Shown here piece after piece: positions 16,501 through 28,229 of a DNA stretch of 64,000 nt; position 1 is the stretch's first letter; every line of letters begins with the position of its first letter. Location: positions 3,413,001 to 3,477,000 of the forward strand of contig NZ_CP048209.1 in assembly GCF_010119935.1 (NCBI RefSeq), written 5' to 3'. Position numbers and translations under genes: made by a program. Below the pieces are notes generated by a model, which was given only the letters and a program-made list of their open reading frames with translations, did no database searches and was not told the origin of the DNA. This stretch comes from Paenibacillus lycopersici (GTDB lineage: Bacteria; Bacillota; Bacilli; Paenibacillales; Paenibacillaceae).

Positions 16501-17328
16501 ATGAATCATACGGATATCCGACTTGAACACGGCTTCACCGTCGAGGAGAAGATTGCATCGTTGACGGAGCATGAGCTGCATACGCATGATGCGCTGGAAA
16601 TCAACATTCCGCTGGAGAACAGCATTCGCTGCACGCTGCTTGGGGGCAATTATGATGCCGTTCCCGGCGACGTGTTCTTATTTCGGCCTTTCGAGCCGCA
16701 TTGGAACTTGATCAGGGAAGGGAACAAGCCGGCTCGTTGGATCATGCTGCTGTTCTCGCCGGCCGTCGCCGCCAAATTGCCGGGAGGCAGCAAGCTGCTT
16801 GTGCCGTTCTATCGCATGGACGTGCCTCCGCTTATTCCGGCCGATTCGCCGCAAGCGCGGGAGATCGGCCGCTTGGCGAAGATGCTCGTGCAAGAAGCGA
16901 AGACGCGGCAGCCGGCCTGGGAGCTTCAGCAATTTACGACGCTGCTTCAGATCCTCGTACAGCTGCACCGTTTCTACGAGGAGCAAGAGTCACTGCAACG
17001 GGGAAACGTCATGGATGCTGTCGACATCATTCGATCGGTCGATTACATGATCGCCTGCGGCACGGACGCGGTCGATATGGAGGAAGCGATACGGATATCC
17101 GGCTGCGGCAAGACGCGGTTTTACGAGAAATTCAAGGAATTGACAGGGGTGACGCCGCATGACTTCCTGATCCGGCTGCGTCTGCAGCATGCCAGCCATA
17201 GGCTGCGCATGACGGAAGACCCTATCGTACGGATCGCGCTCGATTGCGGCTTCGGCTCCTCCAGCTATTTCAATAACCGGTTCAAAGAGTTCTACGGCAT
17301 CACGCCACGACAATTCCGCAAACACTGA
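16501..17328 (+). CDS. AraC-family transcriptional regulator
   Basis: This 275-residue regulator has a cupin-type N-terminal sensing domain (HELHTHDALEINIPLE, PGDVFLFRPFEPHW) and a C-terminal double helix-turn-helix (about residues 175-275, ending ALDCGFGSSSYFNNRFKEFYGITPRQFRKH). The cupin and the adjacent catabolic genes suggest a sugar-sensing activator. It is one of two AraC regulators flanking the locus. Either could bind the direct repeats at the 18.4- and 24.2-kb promoters. ATG 16501 is chosen because the cupin begins shortly after; the ribosome site GGCGGGA is weak. Confidence 0.85.
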   Translation: MNHTDIRLEHGFTVEEKIASLTEHELHTHDALEINIPLENSIRCTLLGGNYDAVPGDVFLFRPFEPHWNLIREGNKPARWIMLLFSPAVAAKLPGGSKLLVPFYRMDVPPLIPADSPQAREIGRLAKMLVQEAKTRQPAWELQQFTTLLQILVQLHRFYEEQESLQRGNVMDAVDIIRSVDYMIACGTDAVDMEEAIRISGCGKTRFYEKFKELTGVTPHDFLIRLRLQHASHRLRMTEDPIVRIALDCGFGSSSYFNNRFKEFYGITPRQFRKH

Positions 17329-17395
17329 GACCCTAAGCGACAAAAGCTTGGAGAGGTTGATGAGGTAGATTGAAAGACGCTCATTCTTAACGAAG

Positions 17396-17438
17396 AAGAG
17401 CCTTGCGCCGTTCTTGCTTGAAGGCGCAAAGCTCTTTT
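17396..17438. terminator. Terminator between convergent araC-type and phyH genes
   Basis: 14-bp stem with one mismatch (AAGAGCCTTGCGCC/GGCGCAAAGCTCTT), then TTTT. It is usable by both converging transcripts. Confidence 0.7.
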
Positions 17439-17471
17439 GAACCTGTAGCCGAGCGCCATTCGGGGTGGCTG

Positions 17472-18176
17472 TTAGGCCCTTGGGACGGAGAGCATCGGCC
17501 GATCGTCGATCAGCTTCCCCGTCTTGGCATAGCGGCAGTTGGCCGCGGCCGCCTGGAATGCAAAAGCGCGCCGCGGCCGGTCGGTATGGTTGCGCTTGCT
17601 GTGATGCAAGGTCTCGCGATGGAAGAATACGGCGTCGCCCGGAGACATCGGTCTGCAAGGCATGGCGTTCGCCGGTTCTGCGGCGCGTCTATGCGCGTGG
17701 TCCGGCCCGTTCAGGTTGGGCTGCCGGCCGAGGAGGTGGGAGCCCGGCGCCAGCCAAAGGCCGGCGTTGCGTTCGTCGATCGGATCGAGGGCGATGAAGC
17801 CGTTCAGCATATGGCCCAGCACATGCGTATACTGATTGTCCTGATGCCATTCGAGGCCATTGGCGTTCGGCGCCACGACAGCGAACATGCCGAGCCACAG
17901 CCGTACGTTGTCCCCGAGTATGCGCTCCATCATGCTGACGATACGCGGATCGTTAAGCATGGCAATCGTGTCGGGATACTCGTCTCGATCGTTATCAAGG
18001 CTGATTCCTCTGCTTCTCCATTGGCCGTCTCCCGGACCGTTCGCAAACTTCTCGATCTCCTTGTTGAGCGCCTCCACGGCGTTCGGATCAAGAAAGCCCG
18101 GCGCATAGAAATATCCCTCTCTGTAAAATTGTTCGATTAATTCCTCCGTTAATTGAAACGTTGCTGCGGCTGTCAT
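17472..18176 (-). CDS. Phytanoyl-CoA dioxygenase (PhyH)-family Fe(II)/2-oxoglutarate oxygenase
   Basis: This 234-residue cupin-fold oxygenase has the iron-binding pair HxD at His111/Asp113 (LEWHQDNQY). The distal His is near residue 191 in LHHSKRN, and a nearby Arg (RPRRAFAF) would bind 2-oxoglutarate. In bacteria this family hydroxylates many small molecules, so the substrate is open. It faces away from the sugar isomerase/transporter operon and shares its upstream region. A palindrome TTGAG-N7-CTCAA at 18199-18215 sits just before its ribosome site (GGGAGG) and may be an operator. A second PhyH gene accompanies the other sugar transporter (51804). Confidence 0.85.
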   Translation of the reverse strand: MTAAATFQLTEELIEQFYREGYFYAPGFLDPNAVEALNKEIEKFANGPGDGQWRSRGISLDNDRDEYPDTIAMLNDPRIVSMMERILGDNVRLWLGMFAVVAPNANGLEWHQDNQYTHVLGHMLNGFIALDPIDERNAGLWLAPGSHLLGRQPNLNGPDHAHRRAAEPANAMPCRPMSPGDAVFFHRETLHHSKRNHTDRPRRAFAFQAAAANCRYAKTGKLIDDRPMLSVPRA

Positions 18177-18413
18177 GATTCCTACGCCTCCCTATACGTT
18201 GAGTATACTGCTCAAGTATATGGCGGCGGAGCCGTTCGATCTTGCGGCTTATGCCGCGGGAAATAACAATTTTGTTCGCGTGCGCACCGGCATGCGGACC
18301 AATAAACGAGCGTAATCGTTGAATAGGTTTCGGACGCGAAGGCAGCAGAATAGTCCATGTCGTCGAATGATGGCTGGACGATGCGTTATGCAATGACTCG
18401 ATTTGACCGCAAA

Positions 18414-18472
18414 ATGACATAAAAATCTTGCCGCTTAATGACATTGACCCTCATCGTGTTCGCTGTTATATT
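18414..18472 (+). promoter_or_regulatory. Promoter P1 with AraC-type direct repeats
   Basis: Direct repeats ATGACAT occur at 18414-18420 and 18438-18444, 24 bp apart. The second abuts the -35 box TTGACC (18444-18449). A 17-bp spacer leads to the -10 box TATATT (18467-18472). This is the geometry expected for an AraC activator touching RNA polymerase. The promoter at 24197-24254 has the same layout and partly the same sequence. It drives the leader and the isomerase/ABC operon. Confidence 0.7.
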
Positions 18473-18483
18473 AAATATCAAAC

Positions 18484-18562
18484 AATACCCATTAAATTAC
18501 TAGGTATTTGGCTACCGGTCAACCGGAGACACGTGCAATGCGTACATTGGCGTGTCTTTTTT
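18484..18562 (+). promoter_or_regulatory. Three-hairpin 5' leader ending in an intrinsic terminator
   Basis: It begins about 5 bases after the predicted transcription start. Hairpin 1 is AATACC (18484-18489) with GGTATT (18503-18508). Hairpin 2 is CCGG-TCAA-CCGG (18515-18526). Hairpin 3 is GACACG/CGTGTC plus CAATG/CATTG around a CGTA loop (18528-18556), followed by six T. This is a complete terminator in front of the first gene, so transcription into the operon must be conditional or partial. Hairpins 1 and 2 recur at 1130-1190 with compensating changes. I cannot assign a ligand. Confidence 0.6.
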
Positions 18563-18637
18563 GTGCTCCGAAAGCGGCTGACCTGGCTCGCAGTACTGCG
18601 GAGCAAGGCGCACCTATTTACAAGGAGGGGGATGGGC

Positions 18638-19384
18638 ATGGCTGAAGCGAAGCCCAAAATAGCGATTCAGGCCAGACTTTGGGGGCTGGACAGAGTGAAG
18701 CGCGAGTATGCGGCCGTCTTCGACGAAATGATCGAGGCGGGTTACGACGGAGCCGAAGGGCGCATTACCTTGTTGGAAGACGAGGAGGGGATCGGACGCT
18801 GCCTTGGCGTTCGGCCTTCATTCTCGCTGATCGCGCTGCATGCCGGTTTGCAGCAGTTCGCGGAGCAGGAAGGGAAAGCAGGGCTTGATTCGATGTTGGA
18901 GGGGATGGCGAGGCTCGGCAGCCGTTACTTGCTCGTCAGCATGGGGGCCGAAGCCGATCGGCCGCAATGGCTGGAGCTTGCGGCCGAACTATCCGAGCGC
19001 TGCGCTTCGGCCGGCATTCAATTCGCCTATCATAACCATGACGGCGAATTCGCGGACGGGTACGGCTTCTTCGATCGGCTCGCCAAGCAGTACAACGTGA
19101 AGCTCGCGGCGGATCTGGCCTGGATCTACCGGGCGGGCCATGATCCGTCGGCATTCGTAAGCCGGTATGCGGATTCGATCGCTTACGTGCATCTCAAGGA
19201 CGTCGCCGGCCAGCAATGGAAGGAGCTTGGGGCAGGCAGCGTGCCGCTGCTGCCGCTGCTGCCGCGATTGGACGAATTGCGCCTGCCGTGGTGGACGGTC
19301 GAACAGGACGACAGCGAACGGCCGGCCGGCGACAGCGCCGCCTTTAGCCGCCAGTTCCTGCGGGAGCACGCCGGGCTGCGGTAG
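18638..19384 (+). CDS. Xylose-isomerase-like TIM-barrel sugar phosphate isomerase/epimerase
   Basis: This 248-residue AP-endonuclease-2-like TIM barrel has metal and substrate-site candidates in FAYHNHDGEF, LAADLAWIYRAGHDP, YVHLKDV and WWTVEQDDS. These fit the family of inosose/ketose isomerases. ATG 18638 lies 8 bases after AGGAGGGG; an in-frame ATG six bases earlier is too close to that site. It is the first gene of the operon with two sugar-ABC permeases and a binding protein, and is behind the leader/terminator. Confidence 0.8.
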   Translation: MAEAKPKIAIQARLWGLDRVKREYAAVFDEMIEAGYDGAEGRITLLEDEEGIGRCLGVRPSFSLIALHAGLQQFAEQEGKAGLDSMLEGMARLGSRYLLVSMGAEADRPQWLELAAELSERCASAGIQFAYHNHDGEFADGYGFFDRLAKQYNVKLAADLAWIYRAGHDPSAFVSRYADSIAYVHLKDVAGQQWKELGAGSVPLLPLLPRLDELRLPWWTVEQDDSERPAGDSAAFSRQFLREHAGLR

Positions 19385-19419
19385 GAAACGCTTGAAAGCG
19401 TGAAAGGGGGAGGAACGAT

Positions 19420-20334
19420 CTGTTCTCCGGATCTACATGGCGCCGATACAAGCGCTACAAGATATTGCTGCTGATGCTCGTTCCGGCGCTGCTCTGGTAT
19501 GGCGTGTTCTACTACGGGCCTTTGTACGGCATTCAGCTAGCCTTTAAGAATTATCGTATCTTCGACGGTATTACCGGGAGCCCTTGGGCGGGACTGGAGC
19601 ATTTTCGGCGCATGTTCTCGGGCAGCAACGATTTTCCCGACATCTTGCGGAATACGATCGTGATCAGCTTCTACCATTTGGCGTTCGGCTTTCCCGCGCC
19701 GCTAGTGCTTGCGCTGTTGTTTAACGAGCTGCGGATCAAATGGTTCAAGCGCGTAACCCAGTCGATTACGTATCTGCCTCATTTTCTATCCTGGGTCGTG
19801 CTGTCCGGCTTGCTGGTCACGTTCCTGTCCCCGACGCAAGGGATCGTTAACTACGTGCTGCAGGGCATCGGAATCGACCCGATTTATTTCTTGGGCGAGA
19901 AGGCGTATTTCAGGTTTACGCTCGTCATGTCGTCCATGTGGAAGGAAGTGGGCTGGGGGACGATCGTCTACATGGCGGCGCTGGCCGGCATTGACCCGAA
20001 CCTGTACGAAGCGGCCCGGGTGGACGGCGCCAGCCGCTGGCGGCAGACGCTGAACATTACGCTGCCCGGCTTGCTGCCGGTCGTCGTCATTCTGTTCCTG
20101 CTCCGCATCGGCCACCTGCTTGACGCCGGCTTCGATCAGGTGCTTAACCTGTACAATCCCGCCGTATACGAGGTGGGCGATATTCTCGATACCTACGTGT
20201 ACCGCGTCGGCATTAACCAGATGGATTACAGCTTTACGACGGCCGTCGGCTTATTCAAGAACGTCGTCGGTTTCGGGTTCCTCGTCATCGCCAATTTCGT
20301 GGTCAAGCGGACCGGACAGGAAGGCATATTCTGA
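19420..20334 (+). CDS. Sugar ABC transporter permease, LplB-type
   Basis: This permease of about 304 residues has six membrane segments and the coupling EAA loop YEAARVDGASRWRQTLNITLPG. The family imports complex oligosaccharides or sugar derivatives. In-frame ATG, GTG or TTG codons before the first membrane helix are absent except TTG 19465 and ATG 19473, and both would remove the basic N-terminal segment. CTG 19420 lies 6 bases after GGGGGAGG and would give the typical start FSGSTWRRYKRYKILL. I therefore propose a rare CTG start. A palindrome ACGCTT-GA-AAGCGT sits at 19389-19402. Confidence 0.8.
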   Translation: MFSGSTWRRYKRYKILLLMLVPALLWYGVFYYGPLYGIQLAFKNYRIFDGITGSPWAGLEHFRRMFSGSNDFPDILRNTIVISFYHLAFGFPAPLVLALLFNELRIKWFKRVTQSITYLPHFLSWVVLSGLLVTFLSPTQGIVNYVLQGIGIDPIYFLGEKAYFRFTLVMSSMWKEVGWGTIVYMAALAGIDPNLYEAARVDGASRWRQTLNITLPGLLPVVVILFLLRIGHLLDAGFDQVLNLYNPAVYEVGDILDTYVYRVGINQMDYSFTTAVGLFKNVVGFGFLVIANFVVKRTGQEGIF

Positions 20335-20365
20335 GCATCGCCGAGCAGAGAGGAGGTTATAGAAA

Positions 20366-21256
20366 GTGAATATTCGCATGACCAAAGGCGAGCAAGCCTT
20401 CCAAATCGCGGCCGTCGCGCTGATCGGTCTGCTGAGCTTATCGGTCCTGTATCCGTTCGTTCATCTGTTGTCGGTATCCTTCAGCACGCCGACCGAAGCC
20501 ATCCGGCCGGGCTTTCATCTCTATCCGCTGCATGTCTCGCTGGAAGCCTACAAGAAGACGTTCGATTCGAAGCAAATTTGGATCGGCTTCGGCAACACGG
20601 CGTTTAGGACGGTCGCAGGTTCGCTGCTCTCGCTGTTCTTCATGGCGATCACGGCCTACCCGTTGTCCAAGCCCGATCTGCCGCACCGTTCGTTGTATAC
20701 GATGGTGTTCGTGTTCACGATGTTTTTTCAAGGCGGGCTGATCCCGACCTATCTGCTGGTCAAGAATATCGGGCTGCTCGATTCCAGATGGGTGTTTATC
20801 CTGGCGCCGCCGTTTCTGATATCGACGTTCTCGCTGCTCATCATGCGCAACTTCTTCATGAGCCTCCCGAGCGAACTCGAGGATGCGGCCAAGATCGACG
20901 GAGCAGGCGATCTCCGCGTGCTGTTCTCGGTCATCATGCCGCTGTCGAAGCCGATCCTGGCGACGCTGGGTCTATGGGCGGCGGTTGCGCATTGGAACTC
21001 CTGGTTCGACGGCATGCTGTATATCCAGGACAGCTCGAAAATGCTGCTGCAAACGTATTTGCGCCGGCTGATCGTGGAGAACCGCGACCAAGACGTGCAA
21101 GCGCTGCTCGACCAGACGATGGGCGCGCAGGACGTCATTCCCGAAACGGTGAAGGCGTCTACGCTGATCGTGACCATCGTTCCCATCATCATCGTGTATC
21201 CGTTCTTGCAGAAGTATTTCGTTAAAGGCGTCCTGGTCGGCTCGTTGAAGGGGTAG
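20366..21256 (+). CDS. Sugar ABC transporter permease, YtcP-type
   Basis: This 296-residue permease starts at GTG 20366 after GAGGAGG. It has six membrane helices. The EAA loop is LEDAAKIDGAGDLRVLFSVIMPL, and the end QKYFVKGVLVGSLKG is typical of the carbohydrate uptake CUT1 subfamily. It partners the LplB-type permease 31 bases upstream. No ATPase gene is present; such systems usually share an MsmX-like ATPase encoded elsewhere. Confidence 0.88.
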   Translation: MNIRMTKGEQAFQIAAVALIGLLSLSVLYPFVHLLSVSFSTPTEAIRPGFHLYPLHVSLEAYKKTFDSKQIWIGFGNTAFRTVAGSLLSLFFMAITAYPLSKPDLPHRSLYTMVFVFTMFFQGGLIPTYLLVKNIGLLDSRWVFILAPPFLISTFSLLIMRNFFMSLPSELEDAAKIDGAGDLRVLFSVIMPLSKPILATLGLWAAVAHWNSWFDGMLYIQDSSKMLLQTYLRRLIVENRDQDVQALLDQTMGAQDVIPETVKASTLIVTIVPIIIVYPFLQKYFVKGVLVGSLKG

Positions 21257-21342
21257 CTGATAGAGTTGATGATAGAGCTGCATATAGGGCGGCTTGCCGG
21301 ACGGCTGAATGAGCGGCCTCGCCCATAAGCGAAGCGCAAAAA

Positions 21343-21416
21343 GATCGAAGGAATGGATCGAAGGAATGGATCGAAGGAATGAAAGGAATGAATCAAAGGA
21401 ATGAATCGAAGGAGCG
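21343..21416 (+). repeat. Six imperfect 13-bp tandem repeats
   Basis: The unit GATCGAAGGAATG begins at 21343, 21356 and 21369 exactly. A shortened unit follows at 21382, with variants at 21391 and 21404. Every unit contains a GGA core resembling a ribosome-binding site, and the last one provides the real site for the binding-protein gene. Confidence 0.8.
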
Positions 21417-21424
21417 GAAGAGAT

Positions 21425-23059
21425 ATGACAAGGTCAACGGGCCGGATGCGTACGATCATTCTTATCGCCGCAGCGCTGCTCTTGCTGGTCGCAGCGGGCT
21501 GCGGAAATAACGGCAACGCGGCGAACGGTAAAGCAGGCAGCGGCGGCAATGGCGCCGACACGAGCGCGAACGCCGGCAAGACGAACGAAGGTCAGACGAA
21601 CGCCGATCAGACGAAAACGGAAGCGCCGATGGAAATCACGTGGCTCAGCTTCAATCCCCCGGAAGACGATTCGTCCCCGGTGCAGCAAGCGCTGGAGAAG
21701 AAGTTCAACGTGAAGTTCAAGAACATCCGCATCGAGCGCGCCAATTACAACGAGCAGATGAACATCAAGTTCAGCAGCGGCGAAATTCCCGATCTGATCT
21801 ATCTCGATTCCTCGCCGCAGCGGGTGGAAGAACTCGTGAATCAGGGCGTGTTGGCCGAGCTGCCGGTCGACGAAATCAAATCGCATATGCCGGAGTATGC
21901 CAAGACGCTCGACGATACGGATCCGTCCGTATGGACATACGGGCAGGTCGACGGCAAAAGCTACGGCATTCCGGTCATCTGGCCGATCGGCAGCCTGCCG
22001 TTTCTGCCGGGCTACAATGCCGACTGGCTGGCCAAAATCGGCTACAACGAGCCGCCGAAAACGCTGGATGAATTCGAAGACGTGCTGCGTAAATTCCGCA
22101 ACGACGATCCGGACGGGAACGGCAAGAAGGATACATACGGATACTCGGGGCAAGGGACGGACAGCCGTTCGTTCTCGACCGTATTCGGCGCGTTCCAGGT
22201 AAGGACGGACTATATGGTCGATCCGAAGTCGGGCCAGATCGTCTACGGCATGACGACGGAGGGCGCGCGGGAAGCGTTCAAGCTGCTGAACAAGTGGTAC
22301 AAGGAAGGGCTGATCGATCCGGAGTTCGTCACGAAGACGGCGAACGATTACCACGACGATTTCGTCAACGGCAAAGTCGGCGTCCGCGACTGGATGTCGT
22401 TCCAATTCGAACCGCGCATCGGCATCGTCGGCTCGCCGTTCTATACGAAGAATCCCGACAACCAGATCGTCGTCGGCAAGCAGGTTTCCGGTCCTGACGG
22501 CGACGGCCTGGCATACTCGTACGGCGCCAAGAACGCGTTTCTCGCCATGGGCAGGCAAGTGGCCGACGATCCGGCGAAGAAGGAGAAGCTGTATGAAATC
22601 CTGAACGCGCTGGCAACGGACGACCAGACGTATTTGACCTCCGTATACGGAATCGAAGGCGAGCATTATCACATGGAGAACGGCAAGCCGATCATGAAGC
22701 CGGAGTTCGCCAGCGAGAACAACAAGTATAAGATCGGCGCAGGTACCTTCTACGGACTGTTCGGAACGAAGAGCAAGCTGATGGAGCATTACGATTATAC
22801 CGACGATACGCTGAAGTTTATCGACGGCTTGAGGGAGAAGGGCGGACAGACGCTCGAGTCGCTGCCGCTCTACGTGCCGGCGATGGATAAATACCTGGAT
22901 CTCGGCAAGCTGGCCCAGCAATATTTTATTAAATTCGTTCGCGGGGAAACCGATTTGGACGCCGGCTTCGACACGTTCGTCAAGGCATGGAACAATGCCG
23001 GCGGCAGCGAGATTTTGACCGAGGTCAACGCGAAATACAAGGATACGTTCGCGAAATAA
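21425..23059 (+). CDS. Extracellular sugar-binding lipoprotein
   Basis: This 544-residue solute-binding protein of the LipO type has a signal peptide ending in LVAAGC (Cys26) and a Gly/Asn/Thr-rich linker. It then has the CUT1-type domain (EITWLSFNPPEDDSSP; PVIWPIGSLPFLPGYNADWL). It would capture the ligand for the two upstream permeases. ATG 21425 follows GGAGCGG from the last tandem repeat. A terminator follows at 23156. The size (over 500 residues) suggests an oligosaccharide or bulky conjugate, but this is only a family tendency. Confidence 0.88.
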   Translation: MTRSTGRMRTIILIAAALLLLVAAGCGNNGNAANGKAGSGGNGADTSANAGKTNEGQTNADQTKTEAPMEITWLSFNPPEDDSSPVQQALEKKFNVKFKNIRIERANYNEQMNIKFSSGEIPDLIYLDSSPQRVEELVNQGVLAELPVDEIKSHMPEYAKTLDDTDPSVWTYGQVDGKSYGIPVIWPIGSLPFLPGYNADWLAKIGYNEPPKTLDEFEDVLRKFRNDDPDGNGKKDTYGYSGQGTDSRSFSTVFGAFQVRTDYMVDPKSGQIVYGMTTEGAREAFKLLNKWYKEGLIDPEFVTKTANDYHDDFVNGKVGVRDWMSFQFEPRIGIVGSPFYTKNPDNQIVVGKQVSGPDGDGLAYSYGAKNAFLAMGRQVADDPAKKEKLYEILNALATDDQTYLTSVYGIEGEHYHMENGKPIMKPEFASENNKYKIGAGTFYGLFGTKSKLMEHYDYTDDTLKFIDGLREKGGQTLESLPLYVPAMDKYLDLGKLAQQYFIKFVRGETDLDAGFDTFVKAWNNAGGSEILTEVNAKYKDTFAK

Positions 23060-23075
23060 AGGCGTTCTTCTGCAA

Positions 23076-23130
23076 CGGCAGGCGGACAGAGGATCCGCTA
23101 TGTGATCGCAATCGGCGATATGAGGCAGTT
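23076..23130 (+). repeat. Interspersed repeat, copy 1
   Basis: A segment that matches the reverse complement of 43161-43210 over 50 bp with about 42 identities, including 33 consecutive identical bases. Its core GCGGA-N7-TCCGC can form a small hairpin. It lies directly behind the binding-protein gene. Confidence 0.8.
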
Positions 23131-23155
23131 TCCTATGGACGTTCTTGACAAGCCG

Positions 23156-23182
23156 GGAGGCATCTGGCGAGATGCCTCCTTC
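23156..23182 (+). terminator. Terminator of the isomerase/ABC operon
   Basis: Perfect 10-bp arms GGAGGCATCT/AGATGCCTCC with a GGCG loop, followed by TTCCTT. It lies between convergent genes. Confidence 0.75.
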
Positions 23183-23223
23183 CTTATGCGGCAGCTTGCC
23201 CCGGACATGCGGGGCAGCCCGCA

Positions 23224-24102
23224 TTAGTGCTTCAAATGCCGATAGTGGTTGGGGGGAAGGCCGACATGCTTCTTGAACGCTTTCGAGAAGGTGAATAAGT
23301 CGGGGTATCCGACGGATTGCGCGATCTCGGCCAGCTTGTACTCCGTTTCCGCCAGCATCGATTTGGCCGCGTCGATCTTCAGCTGCTGCAAGTAGCGGAC
23401 CGGCGTCATGCCGTACGCTTTTCGAAAGGACTTGCTGAAGTACGTGCGGTCGACTCCGGCATACTTGGAAATCTCCTGCACGGTGATGCCTTCCGCGAAA
23501 TGCAAGTTCATGTAGGCCATGCCTTTGTCGAGCCATGACTCGGCGCCGGCTTCCTTCCGGCTCGGCTTCTCGGCCGTCTCCGTCAGCCAGCCCAGAATGC
23601 CTAAGAAAATGCTGGACTTCATCAGTTCCGCGCCGTCGCCGCCGTCCTTGCGAATCAAGGCAAAGAACGATTCCATCCGCCGTTCAAGCTCCGCATCGGC
23701 AGGCCGGCTCAGGTACGGCGATTCGGGGCGCAAGCCGATCCTGTCCAGAACGTCCTTCGCCATTCTGCCGTCGAAGGCGACCCATGCCAGCTTCAGCGGA
23801 TGCTCGGCGGAGGTGTAATACTCTTGCGAGACATGCGGAAACAGGCAAAACAAATCGCCGCTCTTCAGCGAGTAGGTATGATCCTCCTGCGAGAAGAAGC
23901 CGATCCCGTCCACGACATAGTGCAGGCTGTAATAAGGGGTGAAGCGCGGTCCGACGTGGTAATTCGGCTTCGCCTCGTTCCTTCCGAGCCGGGCCGGCCA
24001 CACGGCATTGGCGCGTTCGAACGAGGTCGGCGTGAATAAGTGGTTCTCGATCCACTGAATGTTCTCTTCCTGCCAAAATGCATCTCTAGGGCTGGCGTTC
24101 AT
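23224..24102 (-). CDS. AraC-family transcriptional regulator
   Basis: This 292-residue regulator has a cupin N-terminus (YHVGPRFTPYYSLHYVVDG, LKSGDLFCLFPHVSQEY) and a C-terminal double helix-turn-helix (about residues 190-290, ITVQEISKYAGVDRTYFSKSF and LAEIAQSVGYPDLFTFSKAFKKHVG). It is divergent from the monooxygenase operon and separated by promoter P2, so it is the prime candidate to bind the direct repeats there and at P1. Confidence 0.87.
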   Translation of the reverse strand: MNASPRDAFWQEENIQWIENHLFTPTSFERANAVWPARLGRNEAKPNYHVGPRFTPYYSLHYVVDGIGFFSQEDHTYSLKSGDLFCLFPHVSQEYYTSAEHPLKLAWVAFDGRMAKDVLDRIGLRPESPYLSRPADAELERRMESFFALIRKDGGDGAELMKSSIFLGILGWLTETAEKPSRKEAGAESWLDKGMAYMNLHFAEGITVQEISKYAGVDRTYFSKSFRKAYGMTPVRYLQQLKIDAAKSMLAETEYKLAEIAQSVGYPDLFTFSKAFKKHVGLPPNHYRHLKH

Positions 24103-24196
24103 CTCTCAGACGCTCCTCATTGTCAATTCATCGTTATGTCCAGTGTAAGAGAGAAGCAAAATCTCGGCAAGAGTGTCAATGCAATATTCACGCAAA

Positions 24197-24254
24197 ATGA
24201 CAAAAACATTGGTCTCGTACTGACATTTACCGCCTATTCGAGAACTGATATATT
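24197..24254 (+). promoter_or_regulatory. Promoter P2 with AraC-type direct repeats
   Basis: ATGACA (24197-24202) and TGACAT (24221-24226) are direct repeats; the second overlaps the -35 box TTTACC (24226-24231). A 17-bp spacer leads to TATATT (24249-24254). GCAAAATGACA and TGACATTKACC are shared almost exactly with P1. Confidence 0.7.
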
Positions 24255-24267
24255 CAAATTGCAAATA

Positions 24268-24292
24268 AATCCCATTAAACTAATCGGGTATT
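24268..24292 (+). promoter_or_regulatory. 5' stem-loop similar to hairpin 1 of the P1 leader
   Basis: AATCCC...GGGTATT with loop CATTAAACTAATC resembles the P1 hairpin (loop CATTAAATTACTA). It starts at about the same distance from the -10 box and ends just before the ribosome site GAAGGA of the monooxygenase gene. The other two hairpins of the P1 leader are absent. Confidence 0.5.
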
Positions 24293-24309
24293 GAGAAGGA
24301 TGTGATCGC

Positions 24310-25431
24310 ATGGCAGAAATCGAGTTTGGCTGGTTCATTCCTACGACAGGGGACGGCCCGCATATCGGCGTGCGGCCGGAACGGGAGTCGACGCCGGAAT
24401 ACATGGCGAGCGTTGCGCAGGAAGCGGAGAAGGCCGGATATGAATTCGCGCTGATCCCGGCTGGCGGAGACTGCCTGGATGCTTGGATCGTGGGCACCTA
24501 CATTGCTTCGCGGACGAAATCGTTCAAGCCGCTCGTGGCGATGCGGCCCGGTCTGATGGCTCCGATCCTCGCGGCGCGAATGGGCGCTACCCTAGACCGG
24601 ATAACGGGCGGCAGGGCGATGATCAATGTCGTAACCGGCCACTATCCGGATGATTTGAAAGCAACCGGGGACCTCCTTCATATCAGCCATGACGAGCGGT
24701 ACGACCGCACGCGGGAGTTCATGGAGATCGTCAAGGGCGTATGGAACGACAAGGAACGCGGCGGCTTTGATTACAAAGGCGACTATTACGAAATCGAAGG
24801 CGGCCTCAGCCGTCCGATGCCGCTCCAGCAGCCTTATCCGCCGTTGTATTTCGGCGGGAGCTCCGCGGCCGGCAAGAAGGTTGCCGCGGAGCTGGCGGAT
24901 GTCTATCTCATGTGGGCGGAGCCGCTGCCGTGGATTCAAGGGCAGATCGCGGAGATGGAAGGACAGCTGGAGGAGCTTCGCCGGACGAAGGGGATCAAGC
25001 GCACGCTGCGCTACGGCTTGCGGGCGCAAATCGTCGTTCGCGACACGGAGGAGGAGGCGTGGGAGGCGGCCCGGGATATCATCAGCAAAGCCGACCCGGC
25101 GTTGAAATCGTCTTCCGAGAAGCTGCACGCCAGAACGGATGCCACGAATCAGAAGCGGCAGATGGACTTGTGGCAGCAATCCAAGGACCAGGATTACGTG
25201 ATCGGCCCTAATCTATGGTCCGGCTTGTCGGCCATCCGGGGAGGCGGCGCCGTGGCGATCGTCGGCACGCCCGAGCAAGCGGCAGAGCGGATTCTGGAAT
25301 TCGTCGAGATCGGGATCAGCACCTTCATTCTGTCCGGCTACCCGCATCTGGAAGAAGCGCGCCGGTCGGGAGAAGCGGTGCTGCCGCTGGTCAAGCAACG
25401 GCTGCAGGCACAAGGAGGCGTTAAGCGATGA
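24310..25431 (+). CDS. SsuD-like FMN-dependent monooxygenase (LLM class)
   Basis: This 373-residue flavin monooxygenase is closely similar in order of motifs to alkanesulfonate monooxygenase SsuD: FGWFIPTTGDG, CLDAWI (Cys55), QPYPPLYFGGSS, NLWSGLSAIRGG and SGYPHLEEA. SsuD and the sulfoquinovose enzyme SmoC split C-S bonds using FMNH2 supplied by a separate reductase. From memory of SsuD/SmoC, the sulfonate contacts are Trp, Arg, His and Tyr; here Trp202, Arg238 and Tyr344 are kept but the His position is Gln240. No flavin reductase is in the operon (one FMN reductase is at 58275). It is translationally coupled to a Gfo dehydrogenase, which suggests an oxygenation product that is a sugar aldehyde or ketone. 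Confidence 0.85.
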   Translation: MAEIEFGWFIPTTGDGPHIGVRPERESTPEYMASVAQEAEKAGYEFALIPAGGDCLDAWIVGTYIASRTKSFKPLVAMRPGLMAPILAARMGATLDRITGGRAMINVVTGHYPDDLKATGDLLHISHDERYDRTREFMEIVKGVWNDKERGGFDYKGDYYEIEGGLSRPMPLQQPYPPLYFGGSSAAGKKVAAELADVYLMWAEPLPWIQGQIAEMEGQLEELRRTKGIKRTLRYGLRAQIVVRDTEEEAWEAARDIISKADPALKSSSEKLHARTDATNQKRQMDLWQQSKDQDYVIGPNLWSGLSAIRGGGAVAIVGTPEQAAERILEFVEIGISTFILSGYPHLEEARRSGEAVLPLVKQRLQAQGGVKR

Positions 25432-26444
25432 CAAGATACAATATCGCCGTGATCGGGACGGGAGACATGGGCGGCAACCACGTGAGGGGCTGGATCGCGG
25501 CGGGACATCATGTCGTTTCCGTAACGGACGTGGATCTGCCCCGAGCGCAGGAGCTGGCTGAACGATATAACGTGCCGAACGTGTATGCGGATCACCGCGA
25601 AGCGCTCGAAGACGATTCCGTGGACATCGTCTCCGTCTGCCTGCCGCTGCGGTTTCATGCCCCGATCACCATCGATGCCGCGGCGAGAGGAAAACACGTC
25701 TTTTGCGAGAAGCCGCTCGCCAGCTCGTTCGAGGACGCGCGGCGGATGGAAGAAGCGGTGGAACGGGCGGGAGTCCGATTCGGCATCGGGTTCCAGCGCA
25801 ACTTCGCCGAAGGCGTATCGGCCGCGAAGCGCTGGGCGGAGGAAGGCAGATTCGGACATCCGCTCGTATTCAGCTCCGATCTGCTGCAGGAAGTGCGGCC
25901 GAAGATCGCCATGCATGACAAGAACGGCAATAAAGGGCCGTTCGTGGATGCCTGCTGCCATTATTTCTACATGTGGAATACGGTGTTTCAATCCAAACCG
26001 AAGCGGTTGTTCGCAAGCGGCGGCATCCTGGCCAAGGACCGGCCGGAAATCGCCCATTTCGACGAATTGGCGATCGATACGGGCGTCGTCACCGTCGAAT
26101 ACGATTCCGGCGATATCGGGACGATGACGGTTTCCTGGGGGCTGGCCAAGCATACCCGGCTGCGCGGGAGACCCGATCGCATCATCGGGCCGCTGGGCGG
26201 GGCGGAAGGCTCCTTTAACCAATTCGGCGGCGACATTCTGATCGACTTGTTCGTCGGCGACGGGCAAGAGCGCATCGTGCTGAAGCAGGAGGATCTCTTC
26301 CGGACGGAGCTGAAGCTGTTCGCGGATGCCATTGCGGAGGGCCGCCCTGCGCCGGTTGGCTTCGACCAGGGGAAGGAAATGCTGGCGATGTCGTTTGCCG
26401 TCCTGGAATCGATCGAGACCGGACGCATCATTGAACTGGCATAG
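25428..26444 (+). CDS. Gfo/Idh/MocA-family oxidoreductase
   Basis: This 338-residue NAD(P)-dependent sugar dehydrogenase/reductase has a Rossmann motif VIGTGDMGGNHV. The catalytic motif is FCEKPLASS near residue 93, and VDACCHYFYMW supplies the usual His in the C-terminal domain. The start overlaps the stop of the monooxygenase gene (ATGA), implying coupled translation and a linked reaction. Reduction of an aldehyde produced by the monooxygenase, or oxidation of a ring hydroxyl, are both possible. Confidence 0.87.
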   Translation: MTRYNIAVIGTGDMGGNHVRGWIAAGHHVVSVTDVDLPRAQELAERYNVPNVYADHREALEDDSVDIVSVCLPLRFHAPITIDAAARGKHVFCEKPLASSFEDARRMEEAVERAGVRFGIGFQRNFAEGVSAAKRWAEEGRFGHPLVFSSDLLQEVRPKIAMHDKNGNKGPFVDACCHYFYMWNTVFQSKPKRLFASGGILAKDRPEIAHFDELAIDTGVVTVEYDSGDIGTMTVSWGLAKHTRLRGRPDRIIGPLGGAEGSFNQFGGDILIDLFVGDGQERIVLKQEDLFRTELKLFADAIAEGRPAPVGFDQGKEMLAMSFAVLESIETGRIIELA

Positions 26445-26494
26445 AACAGTCATAGAACTGGCATAGAACTTTCATAGAACAGCCATAGAGCTAT
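26440..26494 (+). repeat. Five 11-bp tandem repeats
   Basis: CATAGAAC-type units start at 26440, 26451, 26462, 26473 and 26484 (the last is CATAGAGC). The first contains the TAG stop of the dehydrogenase gene. The array fills the spacer to the next ribosome site. Confidence 0.8.
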
Positions 26495-26507
26495 AAGGAG
26501 CACTGCT

Positions 26508-27383
26508 ATGGAAATCGGTTTTTATCACGCTTGTTTTCCCGAGTGGGATCCGGCGCGCACGTTCGCCTGGGCGAGTCGGCACGGATTCCGGGGCATCGAG
26601 CTCCACGGAGGGCAACGGTACCGCTTCTTGAATTGGCGGGAGCTCGCCGAAGGCAAGGGCGCGGGGGAGCTCTTGAAGCTTCAGGAAGCCTCCGGCATTC
26701 CGCTGATCGGCATCATGTACGGCGCCATTCCGTTCCTTTCGCCGAATCCGGCCGAGCGGGCGGAGGCGGCGGACACGATCGCAACGCTGCTGAGAGCGGC
26801 GCGCAATCTCGGCATCGAAGTCGTCTCCACGTTCACCGGACGGGATCCTTCGAAGACGTTGGAAGCGAATCTGGACCTGTTCGGGGAAGTATTCCGCCCG
26901 ATCGCGGATACGGCCGAACGGCTCGGCGTGAAGCTGGCCTTCGAGAACTGCCCGATGCTCGACCATTGGCCGCCGGCGCACAATATCGCCGTTTCTCCGT
27001 TCATGTGGACGGCGCTGTTCGAACGGGTGCCGTCTCCGGCGCTCGGGCTCAATATCGATCCTTCCCATCTCGGGTGGCAGGGGATCGATGCAGGCCAAGC
27101 GGTACGGGACTTCAAGGACCGGATTTTTGCGGCGCAGGCGAAGGATACGGAGGTGCTGCCGGATGTCTTGCGGCATGAAGGCATGCTGACGAACCGCTGG
27201 TGGCGCCATCGCCTGCCCGGTCAAGGGGACGTCGACTGGAACGGCTATATAACGGCTCTGCACGAAATCGGTTATGCAGGCGTGCTCAGCATCGAGCACG
27301 AAGATCCGGTCTGGTCCGGGTCGGAGGACAAAGTAGAGCGAGGGCTGCTGCTCGCGAAGCGGTATCTGGAACAGTATATCTAA
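26508..27383 (+). CDS. TIM-barrel sugar phosphate isomerase/epimerase
   Basis: This 291-residue xylose-isomerase-like barrel has metal-site candidates in LAFENCPM (Glu), LNIDPSHLGWQGI (Asp/His), AQAKDTEVL and LSIEHEDPVWSG (Glu). This pattern is common in sugar-catabolic operons that process 3-keto sugars and inosose-like intermediates. ATG 26508 is preceded by AAGGAG. It follows the monooxygenase and dehydrogenase, presumably on one transcript. Confidence 0.83.
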   Translation: MEIGFYHACFPEWDPARTFAWASRHGFRGIELHGGQRYRFLNWRELAEGKGAGELLKLQEASGIPLIGIMYGAIPFLSPNPAERAEAADTIATLLRAARNLGIEVVSTFTGRDPSKTLEANLDLFGEVFRPIADTAERLGVKLAFENCPMLDHWPPAHNIAVSPFMWTALFERVPSPALGLNIDPSHLGWQGIDAGQAVRDFKDRIFAAQAKDTEVLPDVLRHEGMLTNRWWRHRLPGQGDVDWNGYITALHEIGYAGVLSIEHEDPVWSGSEDKVERGLLLAKRYLEQYI

Positions 27384-27434
27384 TCGTTCGCCGAACGATT
27401 TCCACCATATCATGTGATCGCGGAGTTGATGCTT

Positions 27435-28229
27435 GTGTTGCGTTTTGCGGCGCACTTGGAAATGAATTTCGGCAAAGAGGTATCGTTCGCCGATCGCTGG
27501 CATGCGGCAGCGGACAGCGGCTTCGCCGGCTGCGAGTTCGTGTGGCGCCAGCATGAATGGCAAGAGGTGCAGGACTTGCGGAAGGCTCGGCCGCTGCAGG
27601 TGTCGTGCATGGGAGGCACGACCGGCTTCCAGACCGGAGGCGGCCGGCCGCTGCTAACCCGTCCGGAGGATCGGGAATGGCTGGCCCGCGATGTCCGGAC
27701 AGCCGTCGATTACGCGCAACGGACGGCTTGTCCGCGCCTGATCTTCGTGCCGGGCAATCTCCAGCCGGGCTGGAGCATCGAGCGGCATCGGAAGGAAGCC
27801 GTCGAGTCCTTGCGCGCGATCGTTCCGATCGTGGAAGAAGCCGGGGTAACCGTCGTACTGGAGCCGCTCAACAGCAAGGCGGACCATCCGGGCATCTATT
27901 GCGACTCGTCGGCGGAAGCGATGCGGATCGTCGAGCAGGTAGGGAGCCGGAACGTTAAGCTCTTGTACGATATCTATCATATGCAGATCATGGAAGGCAG
28001 CTTGATCGAAACGATCCGGAAGCACCACGATCTAATCGGCTACTATCACGTCGCCAAGGTTCCCGGCCGCCACGAGCCGTTAGGCGGCGAAGTGAATCTG
28101 CCGCCCGTGCTGGAAGCCATTGCGGAGACCGGGTACGATGGCTTTATCGGGTTGGAATACAGCCCCGAGCGCTCCGCCGAGGAGGCTTATCGCAGTGTGA
28201 AGGCGGCATATCCCGCCTATCTGCGCTGA
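27435..28229 (+). CDS. Hydroxypyruvate-isomerase-like sugar isomerase
   Basis: This TIM barrel of 264 residues belongs to the Hyi/OtnI branch. Diagnostic stretches are VVLEPLNSKADHPGIY, LLYDIYHMQIMEG, HVAKVPGRHEP and IGLEYSPE, containing the Glu, Asp, His and Glu ligands. Members interconvert hydroxypyruvate/tartronate semialdehyde or 2-oxo-tetronates. I chose GTG 27435, 9 bases after GGAG, because family members begin LRFAA right after Met; ATG 27429 and GTG 27414 are in-frame alternatives. It is the last gene of the operon, with a terminator at 28241. Confidence 0.83.
   Translation: MLRFAAHLEMNFGKEVSFADRWHAAADSGFAGCEFVWRQHEWQEVQDLRKARPLQVSCMGGTTGFQTGGGRPLLTRPEDREWLARDVRTAVDYAQRTACPRLIFVPGNLQPGWSIERHRKEAVESLRAIVPIVEEAGVTVVLEPLNSKADHPGIYCDSSAEAMRIVEQVGSRNVKLLYDIYHMQIMEGSLIETIRKHHDLIGYYHVAKVPGRHEPLGGEVNLPPVLEAIAETGYDGFIGLEYSPERSAEEAYRSVKAAYPAYLR

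Follow-up and report, generated by a model that had tools for sequence, protein, structure and literature searches.

A candidate monooxygenase route for sulfoquinovose in an AraC-linked gene cluster of Paenibacillus lycopersici

A stretch of 64,000 nucleotides of Paenibacillus lycopersici (contig NZ_CP048209.1, positions 3,413,001 to 3,477,000; hereafter the window) carries a gene cluster in which a sugar importer and an AraC-type regulator are joined to a luciferase-like flavin monooxygenase (LLM), a dehydrogenase of the Gfo/Idh/MocA family (Gfo2) and three isomerase-like proteins (Iso1 to Iso3). The original prediction, made from the letters of the window, had suggested an oxidative route for a sulfonated or otherwise modified sugar in a Bacillota; the comparative evidence supports this and makes sulfoquinovose (SQ) the best candidate. 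With a probability of about 0.65, the locus serves the AraC-controlled uptake and desulfonation of SQ, or of an SQ glycoside such as SQ-glycerol, via an SQ-monooxygenase route of Bacillota. The observations behind this reading are the gene content, boxes shared by two promoters and unique in the genome, synteny, the membership of the LLM in a distinct group, and the association of each module with SQ clusters. By that association, SQ or an SQ glycoside would be the best-supported substrate.

One conserved unit with two operons

Pfam and NCBIfam assignments bore out the families proposed for the locus: two AraC proteins, two sugar-type permeases, a lipoprotein, an SsuD-family LLM, a Gfo-type protein and three isomerase-like proteins of PF01261. 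Two operons are discernible (Table 1). The importer operon (18632-23059) encodes Iso1, both permeases and the lipoprotein, but no ATPase gene was found among its genes as classified with Pfam and NCBIfam; the enzyme operon (24310-28229) encodes LLM, Gfo2, Iso2 and Iso3, and AraC2 lies between the two. In keeping with the translational coupling of LLM to Gfo2 that had been noted, the end of the former (25431) and the start of the latter (25428) share 4 bases, and two isomerase genes follow.

Table 1. Features of the cluster, in window coordinates; percentages are identities to counterparts in other genomes
Feature	Position	Strand	Remarks
AraC box 1	18414..18445	+	upstream of isomerase/importer operon; pattern match
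Promoter-like site, extended -10	18444..18472	+	TTGACC-17-TATATT
Iso1	18632..19384	+	PF01261 TIM-barrel protein, LgdB1-like (Pfam); 62% Cohnella, 41% G188
Perm1	19465..20334	+	sugar-type ABC permease, PF00528; 77% Cohnella, 66% G188 SQ cluster
Perm2	20366..21256	+	sugar-type ABC permease, NCBIfam sugar-permease matches below cut-off; 80% Cohnella, 65% G188
Substrate-binding lipoprotein (SBP)	21401..23059	+	PF13416; 76% Cohnella, 56% G188
AraC2	23224..24102	-	probable regulator of both operons
AraC box 2	24197..24227	+	upstream of LLM operon; pattern match
Promoter-like site, extended -10	24226..24254	+	TTTACC-17-TATATT
LLM flavin monooxygenase	24310..25431	+	PF00296; SsuD sister group, Gln at SsuD position 228
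Gfo2	25428..26444	+	Gfo/Idh/MocA oxidoreductase, PF01408; orthologues in G188, G016, Cohnella, G105
Iso2	26508..27383	+	PF01261 TIM-barrel protein; 67% in G188 and G016, adjoining SftI-type gene
Iso3	27414..28229	+	PF01261, hydroxypyruvate-isomerase-like (below cut-off); 63% G188 SQ cluster, 59% beside Gfo2 in G105

That matching promoters link the transporter and enzyme genes was likewise substantiated. The regions upstream of the two operons (18391-18508 and 24177-24292) align over ∼120 bases with a score of 82, compared with a maximum of 36 among 1000 dinucleotide-shuffled pairs. The box ATGACAWAN{16,17}TGACATT has exactly two matches in the 6.74-Mb window genome (G000), both at these promoters, and the reversed pattern has none. 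Each box ends at its promoter-like site, and the TATATT -10 element follows both boxes at equal distance. Related loci in other genomes were divided by the residue at SsuD position 228 of the LLM into those with Gln (Q228) and those with His (H228, the ordinary SsuDs). Two TGACA motifs spaced by 23-24 bases precede the LLM gene in 15 of 49 Q228 loci (L085 and L242 being probably one genome counted twice, and L231 having been dropped from this count) versus none of 73 H228 loci. An AraC2 homologue lies within 3.5 kb of the LLM gene in 30 of 41 Q228 loci versus, again, none of the 73. Because the boxes are shared and unique, and because AraC2 homologues accompany Q228 LLMs, both operons are very probably under the control of AraC2. 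The locus is a real, co-regulated unit.

The interval originally proposed, 16501..28229, extends too far to the left; what is conserved is the stretch 18414-28229. AraC1 (16501-17328) was discarded as a member, given that no gene of the clusters in Cohnella and G188 (see below) was assigned to it when it was used as BLAST query. The same applies to the PhyH-family gene (17472-18176, minus strand), to which, with BLAST, no counterpart was assigned in these clusters. By eye, the leader of Iso1, downstream of the promoter, shows a hairpin with a T run behind it (18527-18566). A riboswitch or attenuator was considered there and rejected, as no Rfam match reached the gathering threshold and the fold of the leader (z -1.14) is not unusual.

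The dehydrogenase-isomerase module in SQ clusters

Gfo2 and Iso2 are rare: of 295 sampled Paenibacillaceae genomes, 5 yielded Gfo2 and 4 yielded Iso2 at E 1e-60 (at most the best 7-8 candidates per genome scored). Of these genomes, that of the window and that of Cohnella zeiphila (G184), both Paenibacillaceae, also carry the LLM. In C. zeiphila the genes for AraC2, LLM (74% identity), another PF01261 protein, Gfo2 (53%), Iso2 (63%), Iso1, Perm1, Perm2 and SBP are contiguous; no Iso3 gene was detected in the fetched stretch. The additional PF01261 protein between LLM and Gfo2 (L078:11146-11946), which has no equivalent at that place in the window, is 28% identical to Iso3 over 165 aa.

The module also occurs where the LLM does not. 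A genome of the same genus as that of the window (G188) encodes Gfo2 (57%), all three isomerase-like proteins, both permeases and the SBP in one cluster, and no LLM was found in it at E 1e-90 (all 4 candidates scored). This cluster comprises Iso1, an M24-like protein, a GntR regulator, Gfo2, a second Gfo, Iso2, an SQ-isomerase-type protein (NF048012, 680.6 bits with a cut-off of 700; no PDB match), members of PF00365 and PF01116, an aldehyde dehydrogenase, the permeases, SBP, Iso3 and UxaA-family genes. The larger, SuyB-like UxaA-family protein, for which NCBIfam offers galactarate dehydratase alone (141 of 731 bits), is 67% identical to one encoded on a Paracoccus plasmid together with hydroxyacid and Ldh-type dehydrogenases and a sulfate exporter, an arrangement that we take to resemble that of sulfolactate sulfo-lyase. 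PF02952, PF00365 and PF01116, as met in G188, are the families of the sulfo-EMP2 pathway in the available text of PMC9594981. In another genome (G016), Gfo2 and Iso2 adjoin an SftI-type SQ isomerase gene (674.7 bits) and occur with phosphofructokinase, aldolase, aldehyde dehydrogenase and an SQ-type SBP. An M24-peptidase/creatinase-fold protein is kept in both of these SftI clusters (L168:6875-7960 and L167:10714-11826). Outside the family, a Chlorohelix plasmid encodes a Gfo (37%) and an isomerase (41%) between permease genes, in a region with an SftI-family isomerase (343 bits), pyrophosphate-dependent phosphofructokinase, succinate semialdehyde dehydrogenase, sulfite reductase and TauE. In G660, Iso2 (57%) is accompanied by Gfo, GlpK, GlpA, GlpB, an SftI-family protein (286 bits) and an aldolase. 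The window genome itself yielded no SftI/SqvD match (both candidates scored).

The distribution of the sulfoquinovosidase YihQ complements that of the module. SftI was found at E 1e-100 in 7 of the 295 genomes. The five clusters with SftI above the cut-off have an adjoining YihQ-like GH31 gene (55-59% identical to YihQ of E. coli) and, in the 18-20 kb fetched, neither Gfo2 nor Iso2; in the two below it, Gfo2 and Iso2 are present and YihQ is absent. No protein of YihQ grade was found in G000, G184, G188, G016 or G660 (at most 33% identity, with controls at 72 and 100%), the best match in the window genome reaching 29%. Judged by gene content, the Gfo/isomerase pair occupies the place of the absent GH31 sulfoquinovosidase. 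YihM of E. coli (L210:5166-6146), an annotated TIM-barrel protein close to the SQ operon, was considered as a relative of Iso1 to Iso3 and set aside, as BLAST gave no match to them at E 1e-3.

Since Gfo2, the isomerases and the importer are common to clusters with different desulfonation routes, they should act before these routes part, that is, in import and in the release of SQ. AraC2 would bind one box upstream of each operon, and the lipoprotein and the two permeases, with an ATPase from elsewhere, would import the substrate. Gfo2 may then oxidize the sulfosugar at C3 with NAD+; one or two of the PF01261 proteins, in a division of labor that is itself putative, may eliminate the aglycone and add water; and Gfo2, in reverse, would convert 3-keto-SQ to SQ. 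Such a scheme would resemble that of LgdA-B1-B2-C for levoglucosan. With FMNH2 from an unlinked reductase, the LLM would cleave the C6-S bond to sulfite and 6-oxoglucose, which a further unlinked reductase would convert to glucose. The LLM would thereby replace the isomerase, kinase, aldolase and dehydrogenase of sulfo-EMP2-type clusters. The sole PF01613 match of the genome lies ∼1.5 Mb from the cluster; SsuE is missing from some known sulfo-SMO clusters, too, according to the available text of PMC9594981. Iso1 is 34% identical over 119 aa (E 1.7e-14) to a PF01261-type neighbor of the levoglucosan dehydrogenase of Paenibacillus athensensis, and the second Gfo of G188 is 38% identical to that dehydrogenase; PDB and plasmid searches yielded no close characterized relatives of Iso1 and Iso2. 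GH188 enzymes bind the sulfonate through Arg166 and Lys172 of a loop region; six Gfo2 orthologues share, by alignment, an RPK motif and a nearby MH in the corresponding region. At the column of GH188 Tyr136, none of the six has Tyr, but LgdA does.

Alternatively, free SQ could be imported and then desulfonated, with Gfo2 and the isomerases interconverting epimers or anomers of the sulfosugar or handling 6-oxoglucose after the LLM reaction. Proteins of PF01261 do include epimerases (NCBIfam matches are below cut-off). As the cluster lacks a 6-oxoglucose reductase, Gfo2, whose gene overlaps that of the LLM, could be this enzyme, and among the fetched Q228 LLM loci Gfo2 occurs only in Cohnella and the window. 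However, Gfo2 and Iso1 to Iso3 are also present in G188, where, without a detectable LLM, 6-oxoglucose should not arise; Gfo2 and Iso2 stand in SftI clusters where GH31 YihQ is absent; and Iso1 is similar to LgdB1. We therefore consider this alternative unlikely, albeit the most serious one.

The monooxygenase and its importers

Models for SsuD match the LLM far better than other LLM models do, but its score against TIGR03565 (349.7 bits) is under the curated cut-off for SsuD (518.2). The solved structures closest to the LLM model are those of the sulfonate monooxygenases MsuD and SsuD (41-42% identity over the structural alignment). Placing the protein in an SsuD/SmoC tree had been suggested as a check, and it groups with C-S-cleaving enzymes, on the side of SsuD and not of SmoC. 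In the careful, 42-row tree the SsuD clade (19 rows; support 100/97) and the SmoC clade (4 rows; 100/100) are separate from the window LLM group (95/94), which consists of 18 Q228 rows and L083, lies on the SsuD side and contains the pair of window and Cohnella LLMs (100/99). This tree followed a 90-row one made with a quick method. Both trees used a reduced set of H228 rows, and the 42-row tree was made without L002 and L076; as repeat fetches of a genome, L039, L080, L086 and L091 were dropped from the neighbor and motif counts (the first three also from the 90-row tree), and L057 was dropped because of partial LLM coverage. On their own, the 18 Q228 rows do not form a clade in the best 42-row tree, although a single clade is not rejected (p-AU 0.34). 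By this tree, the LLM is a member of a sister group to SsuD/MsuD that is distinct from SmoC.

Cys54, Arg226, His228, Arg297, Tyr331 and His333 of SsuD are presumably active-site residues; five of the six are kept in the window LLM, His228 being replaced by Gln, and His11 is replaced by Thr. All Q228 rows keep Cys54, Arg226 and Arg297, mostly also Tyr331 (Phe in L056 and L059) and His333 (Asn in L058, L060, L061, L082 and L086); none has His at position 11, and position 195 is Met, as in SmoC. L058, L060 and L061/L086 form a long-branch Q228 subgroup with further LLMs, an aldo-keto reductase, mostly a nitroreductase, and three tandem proteins of 587-714 aa; this subgroup likely acts on another substrate, because its position 11 is Arg and position 333 Asn.

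At ≥51% identity, the LLM was found in at least 56 rows from at least 54 of the 295 genomes (Gln228 was read in fetched loci only). Most of the other fetched LLM loci have a different importer, unrelated to that of the window, the SBP of which is 54-65% identical to SBPs in three of the five SftI-YihQ clusters and has a HWRGED stretch in common with them. Of 41 distinct Q228 loci, 30 have this SQ-type SBP at ≤7 kb from the LLM, compared with none of 73 H228 loci (462-527 bits; next match, 88). In a census it was found in 73 of the 295 genomes, beside a listed LLM in 38, beside SftI in 4 and beside neither in 31. Sixteen of these 31 loci were inspected: nine do have an LLM (all Gln228), four have importer genes without LLM (three of these four genomes carry an LLM elsewhere) and three have another sugar gene set. 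The whole-genome searches scored the best few candidates per genome (6 for LLM, 5 in the SBP census), and as that for LLM missed the protein in 9 of 16 inspected loci, the counts are lower bounds. At least 47 genomes (38 + 9) thus have the LLM next to an SQ-type importer. At genome level, both LLM and SBP were found in 45, LLM alone in 9, SBP alone in 28 and neither in 213 (Fisher p 7e-25, with species not being independent). In one genome (G123), a YihQ-SftI cluster coexists with an AraC-LLM-importer cluster at a separate locus (L237, L213). The three other sugar sets (L232, L239 and L240, from G004, G023 and G047) combine, by eye, a divergent SQ-type SBP (48-52%) with a DapA-type aldolase, an isomerase, and IclR-, Gfo- and enolase-like proteins, and perhaps represent another sulfosugar or sugar-acid pathway.

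Could the LLM be a mere scavenger of alkanesulfonates or methanesulfonate that shares its regulation with the importer of an unrelated sugar? Its closest characterized relatives are MsuD and SsuD, and one related LLM (L082) is accompanied by an SsuA-family SBP above the cut-off. On the other hand, the two unrelated importers beside this LLM group each have relatives in SQ clusters, the window genome encodes an additional protein, an SsuD, that falls among canonical SsuDs in both trees, and no Q228 row retains either His228 or His11 of SsuD, which makes the scavenger function improbable. Least probable is that the true substrate is another sulfosugar, for example sulfofucose or sulforhamnose: the window lipoprotein is unlike the type found in GH31 SQ clusters and three isomerase-like proteins could remodel stereochemistry, but in the G188 and G016 clusters it is an SQ-type isomerase that adjoins Iso2.

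Several findings weigh against SQ or an SQ glycoside as substrate of the proposed route. The replacement of YihQ rests on 7 genomes. The SQ-isomerase scores of G188 and G016 are just under the curated cut-off of 700, and those of the family members in Chlorohelix (343) and G660 (286) are far under it. G105 has Gfo2, Iso3 and an AraC but none of the remaining genes. The conserved linkage of LLM, Gfo2 and isomerases that was originally to be sought does exist in C. zeiphila, yet in 2 genomes only, the other importer being present in 30 of 41 related loci. Members of the SQ-type SBP family (48-52%) accompany a different sugar gene set in 3 of the 16 loci inspected, and in 4 of the 16 importer genes occur without LLM. 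Gln228 marks no strict clade, as L083, with His, falls inside the group. That LgdA, a plain dehydrogenase, keeps the Tyr lacking in Gfo2 means that this residue says little. The reported absence of a sulfoquinovosidase, an aldo-keto reductase (AKR) and a flavin reductase is correct for the cluster genes; neither a 6-oxoglucose reductase (AKR) nor a flavin reductase was found among the genes classified at 14-28 kb, PF03358 not having been searched.

A still broader scenario has, in our estimation, about even odds: Bacillota may have evolved their own SQ monooxygenase, the Gln228 group, from SsuD stock and independently of SmoC; Gfo2 plus PF01261 eliminase/hydratase proteins may constitute a third, multi-enzyme sulfoquinovoside cleavage beside GH31 and GH188; the modules would be exchangeable with sulfo-EMP2 and YihQ, and the window would be a natural fusion of both.

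Significance and comparison with known systems

In the mostly open-access literature, judged by the records listed, nothing was found on an SQ monooxygenase in Bacillota, on SQ use by this Paenibacillus gene set, or linking a Paenibacillus alkanesulfonate monooxygenase to SQ, or SQ to sugar phosphate isomerases. The SQ-monooxygenase route, so far described mainly in Proteobacteria, would here probably have a Gram-positive host. Paenibacillaceae are common in soil and rhizosphere. SQ production is put at ∼10 billion tons a year in the available text of PMC10755693. The routes given for Firmicutes in the accessible parts of PMC9594981 and PMC12890257 end in C3 or C2 sulfonates; if the proposed route is true, Paenibacillaceae would instead free the sulfur of SQ directly as sulfite. 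Surveys demanding SmoA, SmoB and SmoC together (as PMC13372026 does in the part available) would then overlook such clusters. An oxidoreductive route of the Gfo type was proposed for Arthrobacter, but companion genes were not found, as far as the accessible text of PMC8873060 goes; a GH188 enzyme was later reported from that Arthrobacter cluster (PMC10755693, in part). The Gfo-isomerase module would be the kind of companion sought there in vain, and the hypothesis is now directly testable.

Like the sulfo-SMO or sulfo-ASMO systems of Agrobacterium and Novosphingobium (SmoC/SquD), the cluster combines an LLM-fold FMNH2 monooxygenase with sugar import genes and its own regulator. It differs from them in that the LLM lies outside the SmoC clade, that the cluster contains no AKR, flavin reductase (with PF03358 not searched), GH31 or GH188 gene, and that the host belongs to the Bacillota, sulfo-ASMO being called exclusive to aerobic bacteria, mainly α- and β-Proteobacteria, in the available text of PMC12890257. 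With SsuD and MsuD the LLM shares the fold, 41-42% identity and Cys54, Arg226, Arg297, Tyr331 and His333, but not His228 and His11 (Gln and Thr), the TIGR03565 cut-off, or SsuABC, in place of which there is a sugar-type importer. The levoglucosan pathway LgdA-LgdB1-LgdB2-LgdC likewise has a Gfo and PF01261 proteins beside a sugar ABC importer, these acting by oxidation, elimination, hydration and reduction (PMC7676230, in the part available), and Iso1 is related to LgdB1; unlike in that pathway, Gfo2 scores 94.5 bits against the NCBIfam model of LgdA (cut-off 650), and its relatives are associated with SQ genes. SqgA, the NAD+-dependent sulfoquinovosidase of GH188, is also a Gfo-like protein with Arg and Lys in the sulfonate loop region, and GH188, too, occurs in SQ clusters without GH31, but Gfo2 has no Tyr at the Tyr136 column and is accompanied by separate isomerases. 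Gfo2 was rejected as a GH188 enzyme, because it falls outside the SqgA-like group: locally, it is 25-32% identical to the Gfo genes from three SmoC clusters, the GH188 status of which was inferred from the accessible text of PMC10755693, whereas these are 48-65% alike. Sulfo-EMP2 (SqvD/SftI, SqiK, SqiA, SlaB), finally, is a Firmicutes system whose families are combined with Gfo2-Iso2 in the clusters of G188 and G016; none of its genes is present in the window, where the LLM takes their place.

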